The position numbers were made by a program, and so were the translations under genes. The notes beneath the pieces were generated by a model. That model worked only from the letters and a program-made list of their open reading frames with translations, was not told the origin of the DNA and ran no database searches. Positions 127 to 11,205 of a stretch of DNA of 29,166 nucleotides are shown here, piece by piece; within the stretch, counting starts at the first letter, position 1, and each line of letters starts with the position of its first letter. Location: positions 1-29,166 of the IMG/VR virus record IMGVR_UViG_3300031608_000027; one strand, 5' to 3'. This DNA comes from a virus.

Positions 127-164
127 GGCGCGAGGTAGTCTTTATCTTCTTTACTATACAGTAG

Positions 165-193
165 ATTATACCATATTTACAACCAAAAGTCAA
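165..193 (-). promoter_or_regulatory. Leftward sigma-70 promoter with extended -10
   Basis: On the minus strand TTGACT (193-188), a 17-base spacer and TATAAT (170-165) match the bacterial consensus at 11 of 12 positions. The -10 is preceded by TG-N, an extended -10. The predicted start is near 158. It reads leftward through the CTTAAG repeats to the ATG at 26, so it is probably an early host-RNA-polymerase promoter for the minus arm. Confidence 0.72.
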
Positions 194-432
194 GTCTTTT
201 CTACTCTTATGTCAACATATTTATACATAAGGGCCGTCCCTTTAATAGCTAAAGGCTATACTCGTGTGTGTCAAGCTTTATTTAAGGAAAACAAGGGCTT
301 AGTATACACATGGATTACCGGATTATACACACATTAATTACCTTTTTCCTCTAAATTGCTACTTTTTTGTATCTAAGGGGGTACAGTAACAATCTTGGGC
401 CAGCCCCGCGCCCCCCCGTGGCCTCCCAGGAC

Positions 433-496
433 TTATCCACAGGTTATCCACATGTCATCCACAGGCTGTGCATAAGTTATACACAAGTTATCCACA
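433..496. other. Phased array of six DnaA boxes (candidate replication origin)
   Basis: Nine-base DnaA boxes (consensus TTATNCACA) occur at 433-441, 444-452, 455-463 (one mismatch, TCATCCACA), 467-475 (minus strand, TTATGCACA), 477-485 (TTATACACA) and 488-496. The five forward boxes sit on an exact 11-bp grid (433, 444, 455, 477, 488) and the inverted box fills the missing slot. AT-rich DNA suitable for unwinding lies to the left and imperfect repeats to the right. Host DnaA binding here is strongly suggested by sequence. Function as an origin is inference. Confidence 0.7.
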
Positions 497-506
497 GGCC
501 CGCATG

Positions 507-523
507 TTGGCACGAGTATTGCA
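507..523 (+). promoter_or_regulatory. -24/-12 (sigma-54-like) element 1
   Basis: TTGGCACG-AGTA-TTGCA matches the sigma-54 promoter consensus TGGCACG-N4-TTGCW exactly, with GG (509-510) and GC (521-522) ten bases apart. It begins 11 bases after the last DnaA box. It is the best of three such elements upstream of the first rightward gene. Confidence 0.5.
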
Positions 524-596
524 TGGGGCGAGTGTGAGTATGCCATAGGATACCACATGGCCCAACAGTGGCATGACTATTGCATGACACAAGTGT
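508..596 (+). repeat. Imperfect direct repeat, 61-bp period
   Basis: Positions 508-535 and 569-596 align without gaps and agree at 22 of 28 bases, sharing TGGCAYG, TTGCATG and AGTGT blocks. Besides carrying two of the -24/-12 elements, such repeats next to DnaA boxes resemble the iterons of plasmid origins. The sequence alone does not separate the promoter reading from the iteron reading. Confidence 0.5.
568..584 (+). promoter_or_regulatory. -24/-12 (sigma-54-like) element 2
   Basis: TGGCATG-ACTA-TTGCA keeps the invariant GG (570-571) and GC (582-583) with ten bases between them. The only departure from TGGCACG is the allowed C/T position. It lies in the second copy of the 61-bp repeat. Confidence 0.42.
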
Positions 597-603
597 ACAC
601 AAG

Positions 604-620
604 TTGGCATGGTTCTTGCT
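604..620 (+). promoter_or_regulatory. -24/-12 (sigma-54-like) element 3
   Basis: TTGGCATG-GTTC-TTGCT again has GG (606-607) and GC (618-619) with a ten-base gap. It is the element nearest the first rightward gene, about 145 bases upstream. No comparably good rightward sigma-70 promoter was found between 200 and 760. Confidence 0.42.
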
Positions 621-764
621 ACGCGGGCGCGCATGATTAAAGGTATACAGTAGTCATGCACAGGATGCATAAAGTTAATTGAGGTCATGCGTTTAAATCA
701 TTAGACAATAATGCGTCAGCCTGTAAAATAGCACCATCAAGCAAACAAACACAGAGGTTACATG

Positions 765-3390: not shown

Positions 3391-3756
3391 ATGGCAGTAT
3401 TAGAAGGATTAGTAGCATTTGAGAACCTTGACGAACACGAGATGTATCAGGGCCAGTCAACAGGTAAGTACTCGCTGGTACTCAGCTTAGACGAGCCAAC
3501 AGCAGGCACATTGGCTGATTTAGGTGTCAAGCTCCGTGAGTATGAGGGCGTTAAACAACGCAAGTTCAGCACCAAGTACGATGTTCCAGTGATGGACGCA
3601 GAGGGCAACACCTTCAAGGGTCGCATTGGTCGAGGTTCCAAGGTGCGGATCATGTACGCAGAGGGCGCACCCCATCCGGTACACGGAACCAGCACGTACC
3701 TTAATAAGATCAAGGTGCTAGAGGTCGCAGAACAGGAGGGAGGCGAGGACTTCTAA
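3391..3756 (+). CDS. ssb: Single-stranded DNA-binding protein (T7 gp2.5-like)
   Basis: A 121-residue protein in the place where T7-like phages carry gp2.5. It has the beta-rich composition of an OB fold and ends in an acidic tail with a C-terminal phenylalanine (EGGEDF). That tail type in gp2.5-like proteins contacts the polymerase and helicase. It is much shorter than T7 gp2.5 (232 residues). TAGAGG at 3377-3382 sets the start. Its stop overlaps the primase-helicase start (TAATG). Assignment is from position, size and tail rather than a diagnostic motif. Confidence 0.6.
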   Translation: MAVLEGLVAFENLDEHEMYQGQSTGKYSLVLSLDEPTAGTLADLGVKLREYEGVKQRKFSTKYDVPVMDAEGNTFKGRIGRGSKVRIMYAEGAPHPVHGTSTYLNKIKVLEVAEQEGGEDF

Positions 3757-5384
3757 TGACAGACGAGTCAACATTTGTTCAACATGAGTCATGCCCTTCG
3801 TGTGGCTCATCTAACAATCTGGCTCGTTATAGTGATGGACATGCAGTCTGCTTTTCTGGGGGCTGCAACCATTACGAACACGGCAAAGGCCAGATGGGTC
3901 AACCAGCACAGGAACGCAAACCAACGAGGTCACTAGAGATGACAGGTACAACAGCAGCAATTAGTGACAGACGAATTTCGTTGTCAACGTGTAAGCGTTA
4001 CGGTGTCACTGTGGAGTATGGTACAGATGGTAAGATAACCAAGCACCACTACCCATACCACGACAAGGACACAGGCACAGCGACAGGCACCAAGGTGCGT
4101 ATCGTGGACAACAAATCTTTTTATGCGACAGGAGGTTTTGATAATGCGGGTCTCTTCGGCCAACAGGCGTTCAAGGGTGGCGGCAAGTACATTACGGTCA
4201 CAGAGGGCGAGGCAGACGCAATGGCTGTCAACGAGATGTTTGACGGCAAGTGGCCCGCAGTCTCCATTAGATCAGGGGCAGCAGGAGCAGCCAAAGACAT
4301 CAAGGCCAGCTTAGAATGGCTAGAGACCTTTGAGAATGTAGTCATATGTTTTGACAACGACAAGGCAGGACAGGAGGCAGCCAAGTCAGTGCTTGATTTG
4401 TTCACCCCCAACAAAGCAAAGAACGTCACGCTACCTATGAAGGACGCAGGCGACATGCTACGGGACAACAAGGTACAGGCATTTGTCAAGGAGTGGTGGA
4501 ACGCCAAGACATACCAGCCGGATGGCATTGTTCGTGGTAGTGACACATGGGAGATGATCATTGAGCAGTCGGATGTTAAGTCCATACCCTACCCGTGGGC
4601 TTGCTTAAACGAGATGACGCACGGCTTCAGACCTAAGGAGCTGGTGACTATCACATCAGGCTCAGGCATGGGCAAGAGTCAGATCGTCAGGGAGCTGGAG
4701 CATTACCTACTGGGTGCGTCCAAAGATAACATTGGTATCCTCGCGCTTGAGGAGGACATACCAAAGACAGCGTTGGGCATCATGTCAATTGAGGCCAACA
4801 AGCAGCTACACCTTGACAAGACAGTGACACAGGAGGAGAAAAAAGGCTATTGGGATCAGACCATGGGGTCAGGACGTATCTTTATGTTCGACCACTGGGG
4901 ATCAACCAGCGAGGACAACCTGCTAGGGCGCATACGCTACATGGCTAAAGGTCTGGACTGCAAGTGGATCATCTTGGATCACCTTAGCATTGTAGTCAGC
5001 GATCAGGACAACGGTGACGAGCGTAAAGCAATTGACAGTATAATGACCAACCTACGTAAGCTGGTTCAGGAGACAGGTGTAGGACTATTCCTAGTGTCAC
5101 ACCTACGCAGACCTAGCGGCTCCAAAGCGCACGAGGACGGTGGTAAGATTAGTTTAGGTGAGCTACGAGGCTCTGCATCTATCGCCCAGCTCAGTGACAT
5201 TGTCATTGGTTTGGAGAGAGATCAGCAACACGCAGACCCAGAGACACGCAACACAACCTGTGTCCGTGTGTTAAAAAATAGGTTCGTGGGCTTGACAGGG
5301 CCTGCCTGTTACCTGTATTATGATAAGGAGTCTGGTCGTATGATTGAGACCAGTTGTCCAACAGGAGATGAAGCGGAGTTCTAA
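3756..5384 (+). CDS. Primase-helicase (T7 gp4-like)
   Basis: A 542-residue bifunctional replication protein. The N-terminus has a zinc-binding motif, Cys13/Cys16 and Cys32/Cys37, for template recognition. A TOPRIM primase domain follows, with Glu150 (TEGEAD) and Asp200/Asp202 (CFDND). The C-terminal hexameric helicase has Walker A GSGMGKS (302-308), Glu332/Glu333 as likely catalytic acids, Walker B ending in Asp408 (WIILDH) and the VSHLRRP motif near 447. Length is close to T7 gp4 (566). It would unwind DNA at the fork and make lagging-strand primers for the next gene's polymerase. Start and stop overlap both neighbours by single bases. Confidence 0.95.
   Translation: MTDESTFVQHESCPSCGSSNNLARYSDGHAVCFSGGCNHYEHGKGQMGQPAQERKPTRSLEMTGTTAAISDRRISLSTCKRYGVTVEYGTDGKITKHHYPYHDKDTGTATGTKVRIVDNKSFYATGGFDNAGLFGQQAFKGGGKYITVTEGEADAMAVNEMFDGKWPAVSIRSGAAGAAKDIKASLEWLETFENVVICFDNDKAGQEAAKSVLDLFTPNKAKNVTLPMKDAGDMLRDNKVQAFVKEWWNAKTYQPDGIVRGSDTWEMIIEQSDVKSIPYPWACLNEMTHGFRPKELVTITSGSGMGKSQIVRELEHYLLGASKDNIGILALEEDIPKTALGIMSIEANKQLHLDKTVTQEEKKGYWDQTMGSGRIFMFDHWGSTSEDNLLGRIRYMAKGLDCKWIILDHLSIVVSDQDNGDERKAIDSIMTNLRKLVQETGVGLFLVSHLRRPSGSKAHEDGGKISLGELRGSASIAQLSDIVIGLERDQQHADPETRNTTCVRVLKNRFVGLTGPACYLYYDKESGRMIETSCPTGDEAEF
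5292..5321 (+). promoter_or_regulatory. Possible internal promoter before the polymerase gene
   Basis: TTGACA (5292-5297), an 18-base spacer and TATTAT (5316-5321) lie inside the 3' end of the primase-helicase gene, about 60 bases before the polymerase start. It matches 11 of 12 consensus positions. Coding constraint could have produced it by chance. Confidence 0.35.
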
Positions 5385-7114
5385 TGCAGATTGTATTCGA
5401 CATAGAAGCTAATGGATTACAACCTACAAAGGTCTGGGTAATTGTAGCTACGGAACTAAGCACCAGTGAGACACACACGTTCTCAGGTGACACGTTACTA
5501 GCCTTCAACGATTACATAGCAGGGCTTGGAGAGTGTGAGATCATAGGCCACAACATAATTGGCTATGACATACCTGTCCTTGAGCAGCTACTAGGTACGG
5601 ACTTTAGCAAGTGTAAGGTCACTGACACATTAGTGATGTCGAGACTAGCTAACCCTTCACGAGAGGGTGGACACTCTCTACGTAACTGGGGTGAGAAGTA
5701 TTTAAACCAACCGAAAGGCGAACACAATGACTGGGATAATTTTTCGCAGGATATGGTGGACTATTGCGAGCAAGACGTTAATGTTAATGTGCTGGTGTAC
5801 AAGAGATTACTTCTTGACCTTGCAGATTTTGGAGCTGAAAGCATTAGCCTTGAACATAGAGTGCAAAGCATTATATCACAGCAGATTAAAACAGGCTGGA
5901 CGTTAGATCAAGAGAAAGCATTTATATTATTAGCGGAATTAAAGGAGAAAAAGTATGACTTGGAAGACAAAGTGCATGAGGTTTTCAAACCGTTACCGAC
6001 ATTTGTCAAAGAAATTACACCCAAGATTAAGAAAGATGGTACGTGTTCGGTTGTTGGGCTTAAATTTCTAGGCGATCATTGGGAGACAGCGGTAGCACCA
6101 TTCAGCCGTATAGACTTTCCAGAGTTTAACCTAGGTTCACGACAGCAGATAGGGAGATACCTACAATACTTTGGCTGGAAGCCACAACAGTTCACTGAGA
6201 CAGGACAGGCCATCGTAGATGAGGCAGTGCTAAGTAAGGTGACAGGTATACCACAAGCGTCATTGATAGGTGAGTACCTAATGATACAGAAGCGTATCGC
6301 ACAGGTACAAAGCTGGCTAGACGCAGTTAAGGACGATGGTAGAGTACACGGGTACGTTAACCCCTGCGGAGCAGTGACGGGCCGCATGACCCATTCTAGT
6401 CCCAACATGGGGCAGGTTCCAGCAGTCTACTCACCCTACGGCAAGCAGTGTCGTGATGTGTGGACAGTACCGGAAGGTTACAAGCTGGTAGGTATGGATG
6501 CAAGCGGGCTTGAGCTACGTATGCTGGCTCATTACATGAATGACGAGGGATACACTAATGAAATACTCAACGGAGATATACACACGGCAAACCAGTTGGC
6601 TGCGGGCCTTGAAACTAGAGATCAAGCAAAGACTTTCATCTACGCTTTTCTTTATGGGGCCGGAGATGCCAAGATTGGGAGCATCGTTGGAGGAAACAAG
6701 CGTGATGGTAAACGACTTAAGGAAAAGTTCCTTGCAAATACGCCTGCTCTTGGAGAGTTACGAACACGAGTTGGAATGGCGGCTACAAGAGGCTATGTTT
6801 ATGGCTTGGATAGGAGAAGGATCACAATACGATCAGAACACGCTGCATTAAATAGCCTATTACAGTCAGCAGGCGCGATAGTAATGAAGAAAGCGTTGTG
6901 TTTGCTTGACGAGTATGCTATACTATGGGGTATAGACTATAACATATTAGGGAACATACACGATGAAATCCAGACAGAGGTCAAGCAAGAGAGAGCAGAG
7001 GTTTTCGGAAGGTTGGCAACAAGCTGTGTTGAAGCTGCCGGACTGTACTACAAACTCAACTGCCCTCTCGCAGGAGATTACAAAGTTGGAAACACATGGG
7101 CAGACACACACTAG
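5384..7114 (+). CDS. polA: DNA polymerase A (T7 gp5-like, family A)
   Basis: A 576-residue polymerase with an N-terminal 3'-5' exonuclease: Asp6/Glu8 (FDIEANG), Asp62 (NIIGYD) and Asp131 (YCEQDV). Polymerase motif A contains Asp372 (GMDASGLE). Motif B has Arg412, Lys416 and Tyr420 (RDQAKTFIY). Motif C is His526-Asp527-Glu528. Tyr420 occupies the position of E. coli Phe762 and T7 Tyr526. It is about 130 residues shorter than T7 gp5. Roughly 55 residues (about 200-255) stand where T7 carries its thioredoxin-binding insert, so thioredoxin use is uncertain. The 3' end overlaps the nuclease gene that follows. Confidence 0.96.
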   Translation: MQIVFDIEANGLQPTKVWVIVATELSTSETHTFSGDTLLAFNDYIAGLGECEIIGHNIIGYDIPVLEQLLGTDFSKCKVTDTLVMSRLANPSREGGHSLRNWGEKYLNQPKGEHNDWDNFSQDMVDYCEQDVNVNVLVYKRLLLDLADFGAESISLEHRVQSIISQQIKTGWTLDQEKAFILLAELKEKKYDLEDKVHEVFKPLPTFVKEITPKIKKDGTCSVVGLKFLGDHWETAVAPFSRIDFPEFNLGSRQQIGRYLQYFGWKPQQFTETGQAIVDEAVLSKVTGIPQASLIGEYLMIQKRIAQVQSWLDAVKDDGRVHGYVNPCGAVTGRMTHSSPNMGQVPAVYSPYGKQCRDVWTVPEGYKLVGMDASGLELRMLAHYMNDEGYTNEILNGDIHTANQLAAGLETRDQAKTFIYAFLYGAGDAKIGSIVGGNKRDGKRLKEKFLANTPALGELRTRVGMAATRGYVYGLDRRRITIRSEHAALNSLLQSAGAIVMKKALCLLDEYAILWGIDYNILGNIHDEIQTEVKQERAEVFGRLATSCVEAAGLYYKLNCPLAGDYKVGNTWADTH

Positions 7115-9018: not shown

Positions 9019-9325
9019 TGACGCAACAAGATTTGAATGGGACAGAGCAACCAACAAGACAGGACTAGAGCCTTGGGCTACAATGGCTGAGGAAGAACAA
9101 GAAGACATGGTAGGTGCGCCCAAGCATTACAACTCAGGCAACATAGAGTGTATTGATGCAATAGAGGAGTCCATGTCCAGTCACGCATTCAAAGGCTACC
9201 TCAAGGGCAATTGCATGAAGTACCTGTGGCGCTATGACTACAAGGGCAAGCAGGTGGAGGACTTACAGAAAGCAGGTTGGTACTTACGTAGATTAACAGA
9301 TATGGTAACAGAGGAGAACACATAA
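9008..9325 (+). CDS. DUF3310-family protein
   Basis: The 105-residue product starts at ATG 9008, 9 bases after AGAGG. An upstream in-frame start at 8981 lies inside the previous gene. It carries the family signature PKHY (38-41), then IECIDAIE, FKGYLKGNCMKYLWRYDYKG and a C-terminal DLQKAGWYL helix. DUF3310 proteins are common beside nucleotide-metabolism genes in phages; their biochemical role is not established. The position immediately before RNR suggests a link with dNTP supply. Confidence 0.85.
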   Translation: MSINDATRFEWDRATNKTGLEPWATMAEEEQEDMVGAPKHYNSGNIECIDAIEESMSSHAFKGYLKGNCMKYLWRYDYKGKQVEDLQKAGWYLRRLTDMVTEENT

Positions 9326-11205
9326 TGGATCAGTACCAACAGTTTATACACAAGAGCAGATACGCACGATGGATACCAGAGGCAGGCAGACGTGAGACAT
9401 GGGAGGAAACAGTACAACGATACGTAAACTTCTGGACGGAACGTGGACAGATAGATGACAAGGTAGCTAGTAAACTGTACAAGGCTATACATAACCTAGA
9501 CGTTATGCCATCCATGCGCTGCATGATGACAGCAGGAGTAGCATTAGACAAGGACAACGTAGCAGGCTTCAACTGTAGCTACCTAGCCATTGACTCACCG
9601 CGCAGCTTTGACGAGCTGATGTATGTCCTGATGTGTGGTACAGGTGTAGGCTTCAGTGTTGAACGTAACTTCATCACCAAGCTACCTGTCATTGCAGAGA
9701 CATTCCACAAGACTGACAGCACCATTGTCGTGTCGGACAGTAAGATAGGGTGGGCCTCTGCATTCCGTGAGCTTATCGCTATGCTCTACGCAGGTAAGAT
9801 ACCTAACTGGGACATGAGCAAGGTACGTCTGTCCGGTGAGAGACTTAAGACCTTCGGTGGTAGAGCCAGTGGCCCTGAGCCTTTGATTGATCTGTTCAAC
9901 TTCTGTGTTGAGAAGTTCAGCAAGGCAGCAGGACGCAAGCTGACCAGCATTGAGTGTCACGATGTTGTGTGTAAGATTGCTGACATTGTAGTTGTAGGTG
10001 GTGTTAGACGTTCAGCATTGATCAGCCTGTCTAATCTATCTGACCCACGTATGGCTAAGGCCAAGTCAGGTAACTGGTGGGAGCTGGAAGGACAGCGTAG
10101 ACTAGCCAACAACAGCGTAGCGTACACAGAGAAGCCAGACTTTGAGTCATTCCTGTCAGAGATGCAGACAATGTACGAGAGTAAGGCAGGTGAGCGTGGT
10201 ATCTTTAGTCGTGTAGCAGCACAGAAGATAGCAGCACGTAACGGACGTAGAGATGCAGAGCAGGACTTTGGTACTAACCCATGCTCAGAGATCATCCTAC
10301 GCAGTAATCAGTTCTGTAACCTGTCAGAGATTGTTGTCCGTGAAGATGACACACTCAAGACACTGAAGGCTAAGGCAGAGATTGCGTCCATCATAGGTAC
10401 GCTACAGGCTACGCTAACAGACTTTAGATACCTGCGTAACATATGGAAAAGAAACACTGAGGAAGAGGCATTGCTGGGCGTTAGCATGACAGGTATAATG
10501 GATCACTACCTGCTGAGTAAGGGAGAGTCAAAGGACTTGTCGAAGTGGCTAGAGGAGATAAGAGATGTTTGTGTGGAGACTAATAGAACATGGGCTGCAA
10601 CACTTGGGATTGCTCAATCTGCGGCTATTACATGCGTTAAGCCAAGTGGTACTGTTTCTCAGCTTGTCGATTCTGCTTCTGGCATCCATCCTCGCTTCTC
10701 TGAGTATTACATTCGCAGAGTACGTAGTGACAACAAAGACCCGCTTGCAGTCTTCATGTCCAACATGGGCTTCCCTGTGGAACAAGACCTGATGAGTCCA
10801 TCGTCATCTGTGTTTAGCTTCCCTGTGAAAGCACCAAGCACTAGTGTGACGGTCAAACAAGTAGGAGCAATGCAGCAGCTAGAACTTTGGAAAGCATATC
10901 AGAACCACTGGTGCGAACACAAACCAAGCATCACTGTTTATTACACTGATAACGAGTTCCTCCAAGTAGCTCAATGGATATGGGATAACTTCGACTTGTG
11001 TAGTGGTATTAGTTTGTTGCCATTTAGTGATCATGTATATCAACAAGCTCCGTATGAGGACATCACTGCTGAGAAGTACAAAGAGTTAGTAGCAGCAATG
11101 CCAGTGGATGTTAAGTGGACTGACCTAGAACAGTATGAGAAGGAAGACAACACGACAGGTAGTCAAGAGTTAGCATGTGTAGGGGGTGCATGTGAAATAG
11201 TATAG
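9325..11205 (+). CDS. Class II (adenosylcobalamin-dependent) ribonucleotide reductase
   Basis: A 626-residue monomeric reductase that makes deoxyribonucleotides, using vitamin B12 coenzyme rather than oxygen or a second subunit. The active site is visible: Cys84 (FNCSY), Asn318/Cys320/Glu322 (NPCSE) and Cys331 (FCNLSE). The C-terminal redox pair is Cys618/Cys623 (CVGGAC). The CVKPSGTVSQL phosphate-binding segment is intact. There is no beta-subunit gene nearby, as expected for class II. It resembles the monomeric RTPR type. It is the last gene of the replication operon and ends just before the central terminator. Confidence 0.93.
   Translation: MDQYQQFIHKSRYARWIPEAGRRETWEETVQRYVNFWTERGQIDDKVASKLYKAIHNLDVMPSMRCMMTAGVALDKDNVAGFNCSYLAIDSPRSFDELMYVLMCGTGVGFSVERNFITKLPVIAETFHKTDSTIVVSDSKIGWASAFRELIAMLYAGKIPNWDMSKVRLSGERLKTFGGRASGPEPLIDLFNFCVEKFSKAAGRKLTSIECHDVVCKIADIVVVGGVRRSALISLSNLSDPRMAKAKSGNWWELEGQRRLANNSVAYTEKPDFESFLSEMQTMYESKAGERGIFSRVAAQKIAARNGRRDAEQDFGTNPCSEIILRSNQFCNLSEIVVREDDTLKTLKAKAEIASIIGTLQATLTDFRYLRNIWKRNTEEEALLGVSMTGIMDHYLLSKGESKDLSKWLEEIRDVCVETNRTWAATLGIAQSAAITCVKPSGTVSQLVDSASGIHPRFSEYYIRRVRSDNKDPLAVFMSNMGFPVEQDLMSPSSSVFSFPVKAPSTSVTVKQVGAMQQLELWKAYQNHWCEHKPSITVYYTDNEFLQVAQWIWDNFDLCSGISLLPFSDHVYQQAPYEDITAEKYKELVAAMPVDVKWTDLEQYEKEDNTTGSQELACVGGACEIV

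Follow-up and report, generated by a model that had tools for sequence, protein, structure and literature searches.

We find that the viral DNA analysed here, a stretch of 29,166 nucleotides to which we refer as the window, carries at positions 363-730 what is best explained as the phage's only divergent control region; the phage itself belongs to a family with no cultivated member. An array of six DnaA-type boxes (433-496) lies in this region just upstream of three elements of the sigma-54 type, and its sequence features point with high probability to a cooperative site that docks host DnaA. As the best explanation of the whole, and as an evenly balanced proposition, we suggest that the region docks host regulators, would thereby control early transcription and perhaps helps to open the DNA for replication. 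The parts of such an arrangement are known singly, sigma-54 dependence from phage YuA, DnaA boxes from T5 and box arrays from T7-like phages, none of which joins the two; their combination is not described in the literature that we searched, and a search for DnaA boxes with sigma-54 in phages returned nothing relevant.

The array comprises exact boxes at 433-441 and 444-452 (both TTATCCACA, + strand), forward boxes with one mismatch at 455-463 (TCATCCACA, +) and 477-485 (TTATACACA, +, which fits TTWTNCACA), an inverted box with one mismatch at 467-475 (TTATGCACA, - strand), and a third exact copy of TTATCCACA at 488-496 (+), which ends 11 bp ahead of a sigma-54 TGGCAC. All six boxes reported in the initial annotation are therefore found where it placed them, three exact and three with a single mismatch. 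Its exact 11-bp grid holds for the five forward boxes (433, 444, 455, 477 and 488), which are 11 bp or multiples of 11 bp apart, and fails for the inverted box: the empty slot begins at 466, the box one base later at 467. An isolated box of the same type (TTATACACA, one mismatch) is found left of the array at 323-331 (+). Over the whole window, matches with at most two mismatches are at chance level (98 vs. 95 expected), and what is unusual is thus the clustering: no 64-bp stretch in 60 trinucleotide-model shuffles holds more than three boxes with at most one mismatch, compared with six in the array, where several TTWTNCACA-type boxes are helically phased. Of the DnaA, sigma-54, NtrC and parS consensus sequences used here, two are backed by an E. 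coli glnA control.

Comparison of box spacing among related contigs, proposed with the initial annotation, reveals arrays at the homologous place in which most boxes are spaced by 11 or 21-22 bp; when spacings on the same strand are pooled from every homology-selected locus, the peaks fall at 11 (37), 21-22 (21) and 33 bp (9). Relatives with polymerases that are 82-91% identical carry arrays at the same place in which boxes have been gained and lost; the number of boxes, their orientation and their spacing are all freely variable. At least three boxes are present in 21 of 52 control regions selected by terminase vs. 0 of 260 shuffles, counts that are inflated by kinship among contigs that are mostly fragments. 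Units lying between two exact boxes, picked regardless of their own sequence, retain T4, C6 and A7, with most of the variation at positions 3, 5 and 8, as would be expected of DnaA sites rather than of copied repeats. Retention in relatives, helical phasing and this DnaA-like degeneracy all argue for the DnaA-type identity that the initial annotation assigned. That the repeats instead bind some other phage or host protein is highly improbable, as their degeneracy, their spacing and the fact that they recur in unrelated phages are all consistent with DnaA.

Rightward from the array region run a first early ORF of 62 aa (762-950, +; from the ORF list, without a Pfam match), a Gp2.5-like ssDNA-binding protein (3391-3756, +; phrog_112, E 1e-6), a T7-type primase-helicase (3756-5384, +; phrog_239, E 4e-184), a family A DNA polymerase (5384-7114, +; phrog_17, E 3e-146), nucleases and then a B12-type ribonucleotide reductase (9325-11205, +; profile matches). 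ORFs in the far half of the window point left, towards these replication genes, and in one relative, L008, the left side of the homologous intergenic region is where leftward genes start, among them the terminase and probably the portal. Since replication genes leave rightward and, in L008, terminase genes leftward, the array region is a divergent control region. The isolates with the closest polymerases are pelagiphages (about 53% identity); the terminase has no good full-length match in any isolate, and its partial matches go up to 43%. A polymerase search of bacterial genomes for the host found none.

The initial annotation presumed that a phage with this T7-like replisome would start replication through RNA polymerase, and that recruitment of host DnaA would therefore be unusual. 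The T7 premise fits poorly. Ahead of the ssDNA-binding protein gene there is no rightward ORF longer than 87 aa, too small for a phage RNA polymerase, and the early region thus probably encodes no such enzyme; a phage RNA polymerase search in the relatives gave no match, with the positive control likewise silent, and is not counted as proof. DnaA-box arrays at 11/12 bp are found, moreover, in the T7-like isolates P483, A7 and Kp7.

The imperfect repeats that the initial annotation noted on the right-hand side of the array are indeed present, and their nature, which it overlooked, is that of three sigma-54-type elements on the + strand: TGGCACGAGTATTGCA at 508-523 (12/12), which is kept beside the array in relatives, TGGCATGACTATTGCA at 569-584 (11/12) and TGGCATGGTTCTTGCT at 605-620 (11/12). 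Scores refer to the -24/-12 consensus, which we take to be YTGGCACG-N4-TTGCW; the elements read TGGCAC(G)-N4/5-TTGCW, GG lying ten bases from GC, and face the early genes. Sites of at least 11/12, of which these are three, occur 0.2 times per shuffle. Seeding homology-selected control regions with TTGGCA alone recovers TTGC at the right distance, and only in the early-gene direction, with 22 of 25 seeds oriented forward; a sigma-54 site is found in 21 of the 52 terminase-selected control regions vs. 2 of 260 shuffles. These patterns strongly suggest that the elements at 508, 569 and 605 are functional. In the window and in relatives, tandem sites lie 26-36 bp apart and look too close for simultaneous polymerases. 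A search for a phage-encoded sigma-54 activator in ten relatives found none, and the control worked; no NtrC-like site is present in window positions 131-760 with up to three mismatches allowed, which, like the crowding of the tandem sites, counts against our best explanation.

The first sigma-54 element begins 11 bp past the last box, a spacing common to many relatives. A search of viral contigs for a box and, after it, a sigma-54 element finds 114, with the gap peaking at 11 bp, and the same search with a scrambled -12 finds 0; with an inverted box it returns 68 contigs, many with a 15-bp gap. Genes of the window's phage family are present at about 80 of the 112 loci tested, and the remaining combinations include other phages: L306 (PurZ-like), L258 (N4-like RNA polymerase) and L283 (rIIA and primase-helicase). 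The 64-kb contig L339, which encodes a PurZ-like protein and is possibly from a Z-DNA phage, carries some eight DnaA boxes, most of them on a 12-bp grid, as well as four sigma-54-like sites in tandem. Plasmids gave no match to the composite, and 19 matches in bacterial genomes, none of them with an array, are taken as chance. Over the 52 terminase-selected regions the association of array and sigma-54 element has p = 0.02 and is not significant once kinship is allowed for. Functional coupling of the two is, on such sequence patterns, a real possibility that falls somewhat short of an even prospect.

Several further elements adjoin the array. An anchor at 363-384 (TTTTTTGTATCTAAGGGGGTAC, +) is found as the same element in relatives with and without an array, and between it and the array lies a C/G-rich stretch at 403-432 (+; 13% A+T) whose C-run recurs in many relatives. 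The anchor TTTTTTGTAT..GGGTAC followed by the C-run (window 363-432) is widely kept, array present or absent; the anchor may be nearer the obligatory core than the array is, as an origin or packaging site. Comparison with relatives also reveals an operator-like element at 543-560 (CCATAGGATACCACATGG, +), which is a perfect palindrome, CCATAGG-ATA-CCTATGG, in L007 and L008, and which is kept in L023 and L037, two relatives that have lost the array and sigma-54 element. Two sigma-70 promoter-like sites are present: TTGACT-17-TATAAT at 165-193 (-; 11/12, with TG ahead of the second hexamer) reads leftwards, and TAGACA-16-TAAAAT at 702-729 (+; 10/12) reads into the early genes. Judged by its sequence, the latter could drive the early genes alone, which counts against our best explanation.

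Other host-type sites occur in the homologous regions of relatives. The NtrC-like motif TGCACYA-N3-TRGTGCA is present in some of them, with 19 exact copies in 2.7 Mb vs. 0 in shuffles, and 110 viral contigs (L493-L571 and others), mostly from the window's phage family, contain tandem NtrC-like pairs. A sigma-54 element lies 70-195 bp from such sites in 12 of 64 cases (about 1.4 expected), and the same scan of E. coli glnA recovers both NtrC sites and the promoter. Our limited literature search turned up no NtrC-controlled phage. Candidate parS sites lie in phage control regions, often beside arrays (L374:2641, L270:752, L129:4204, L338:124). In L558 (884-1481) the order is anchor, C-run, DnaA array, a perfect parS (TGTTTCACGTGAAACA), two NtrC-like sites and, 70 bp on, a sigma-54 element. 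We also considered whether the array simply takes the place of NtrC enhancers and rejected this, as L558 and L376 carry both.

This gathering of host sites might instead act as a decoy, with the array soaking up host DnaA, and tandem sigma-54 and NtrC sites those regulators, so that the host is disturbed. Host sites of several kinds do cluster and repeat, and in some relatives the boxes are surrounded by as many as four sigma-54-like sites; titration, however, needs neither the 11-bp gap to sigma-54, nor the early-gene orientation seen in the seeds, nor NtrC sites at enhancer distance, and at anything but a high copy number six sites are few. We regard this possibility as improbable.

The cassette turns over rapidly among close relatives. 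The 52 control regions picked with the terminase as sole criterion comprise 13 with array and sigma-54 element, 8 with array only, 8 with sigma-54 only and 23 with neither, and on the terminase tree the array changes state 13 times and the sigma-54 element 12 times. The array is absent from L023 and L037, with polymerases 88-89% identical, and from L344, with a terminase 96% identical; L415 and L416 have identical terminases, and one has a ten-box array, the other three sigma-54 elements. We reject the idea that array and sigma-54 element form an inseparable unit, since each is found alone and this identical-terminase pair differs. In L023 (4230-4590) and L037 (4160-4530) a strong sigma-70-like TTGACA-TATACT promoter and a structured-RNA-like stretch replace array and sigma-54 element; the fold z of that stretch in L023 is only -1.9, and an Rfam search of the window and relatives, this stretch included, gave no match. 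Rapid cassette swapping between near-identical phages is in effect a natural experiment.

The same turnover weakens the replication-origin role proposed in the initial annotation, by which host DnaA would bind the array and melt the adjoining DNA, onto which the phage primase-helicase would load. In its favour are a DnaA-type array placed in non-coding divergent DNA, helical phasing, the A+T-rich left flank, and parS-like sites that adjoin box arrays in 8 of 19 distinct sites vs. a 2% background (L558, L374, L270, L129 and others), an arrangement that resembles bacterial origin regions. The flank described in the initial annotation is A+T-rich at 133-402 (60-72%) and is not so at 403-432, directly at the boxes. 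Next to the boxes the longest DnaA-trio run in the left flank is no longer than in shuffles. The array is not kept wherever the same replisome is used, as L023, L037, L344 and others with near-identical replication or packaging genes do without it, and the frequent state changes and the free variation in box number, orientation and spacing likewise stand against an origin. GC skew, which had been suggested as a check, tracks gene direction in the window and is thus uninformative. With the array dispensable under the same replisome and no DnaA-trio beside it, we judge a DnaA-dependent origin unlikely, though it is the most serious of the alternatives and a form of it can coexist with our best explanation; given turnover among relatives so close, the array is probably not an obligatory replication origin.

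Our best explanation, a control region that docks host regulators, would operate as follows. Host DnaA would occupy the boxes along one side of the helix, immediately upstream of the first sigma-54 element, while host sigma-54 RNA polymerase would be brought in by the sigma-54 elements and transcribe the early and replication genes. Array-bound DnaA would then regulate the sigma-54 promoter, help to open the DNA for the phage helicase, or both, and early transcription, hence the first replication opening, would become dependent on the growth and nutrient state of the host. The homologous region in relatives would draw also, or instead, on NtrC enhancer and parS-like sites. We infer that the DnaA and sigma-54 sites may act together, as activation or as repression; to our knowledge DnaA is not a sigma-54 activator, and direct activation is therefore treated as hypothetical. 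More tentative still than coupling itself is the broader proposal that the lytic programme of a widespread phage family is gated by the state of the host, sensed via modular host-regulator sites (DnaA array, sigma-54, NtrC, parS), with the array acting directly on the adjacent sigma-54 promoter. If true, the start of phage development would be wired to the replication state of the host through DnaA and to its nitrogen status through NtrC and sigma-54, and lytic phages would repeatedly build early switches out of host regulatory sites.

Known systems share parts of this arrangement. Development of the Pseudomonas phage YuA is described in one paper as strictly dependent on host sigma-54 (PMC5053324), and YuA uses -24/-12 elements read by host sigma-54 polymerase, as is predicted from sequence for the window. 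Unlike those of the window, the annotated YuA promoters lie among structural genes and reach with the same matrix at best 10/12, on the opposite strand, and the whole YuA genome has one box with at most one mismatch. In E. coli glnA, a sigma-54 element is preceded by two NtrC sites at a distance of about 90-120 bp, a layout shared with the window's relatives; the window itself has no NtrC sites, and the glnA sequence examined has no DnaA array. Bacterial oriC and parS regions likewise combine DnaA boxes with nearby A+T-rich DNA, and parS stands beside the arrays of some relatives, whereas the window's array has no DnaA-trio and no conserved layout and is dispensable in close relatives.

DnaA-box arrays are also present in the Berlinvirus phages P483 and A7 and the Molineuxvirinae phage Kp7 (L331, L332 and L333), each with at least seven boxes, many at 11, 12 or 22 bp. 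The A7 array lies in a terminal repeat, whereas those of P483 and Kp7 are non-coding and are found at a comparable position or close to the end of the record, all without sigma-54 elements; the A7 paper makes no mention of DnaA. DnaA boxes are also contained in the injection stop signal of T5, as described in a 2026 paper (PMC13250531). This signal, like the window, has a DnaA-box cluster in non-coding phage DNA; the T5 boxes, unlike those here, are four arranged as 12-bp pairs in the terminal repeat, with no sigma-54 element of at least 11/12 and a proposed role in DNA entry. By analogy, array-bound DnaA in the window could pause DNA entry, and the position of the A7 array inside a 177-bp terminal repeat fits such a role; contigs of the window's family are, however, permuted differently around the array, and the absence of sigma-54 elements from T5 and A7 also speaks against it, leaving an entry stop quite improbable, more so than a decoy. 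The isolated Limnohabitans phage DC31 (PQ492658; L334:5004-5247) has, like the window, both kinds of site in one intergenic region, where five exact DnaA boxes are accompanied by two sigma-54-like elements; it differs in its 76-kb genome and in a forward sigma-54 site about 110 bp from the last box, and is a possible laboratory system.
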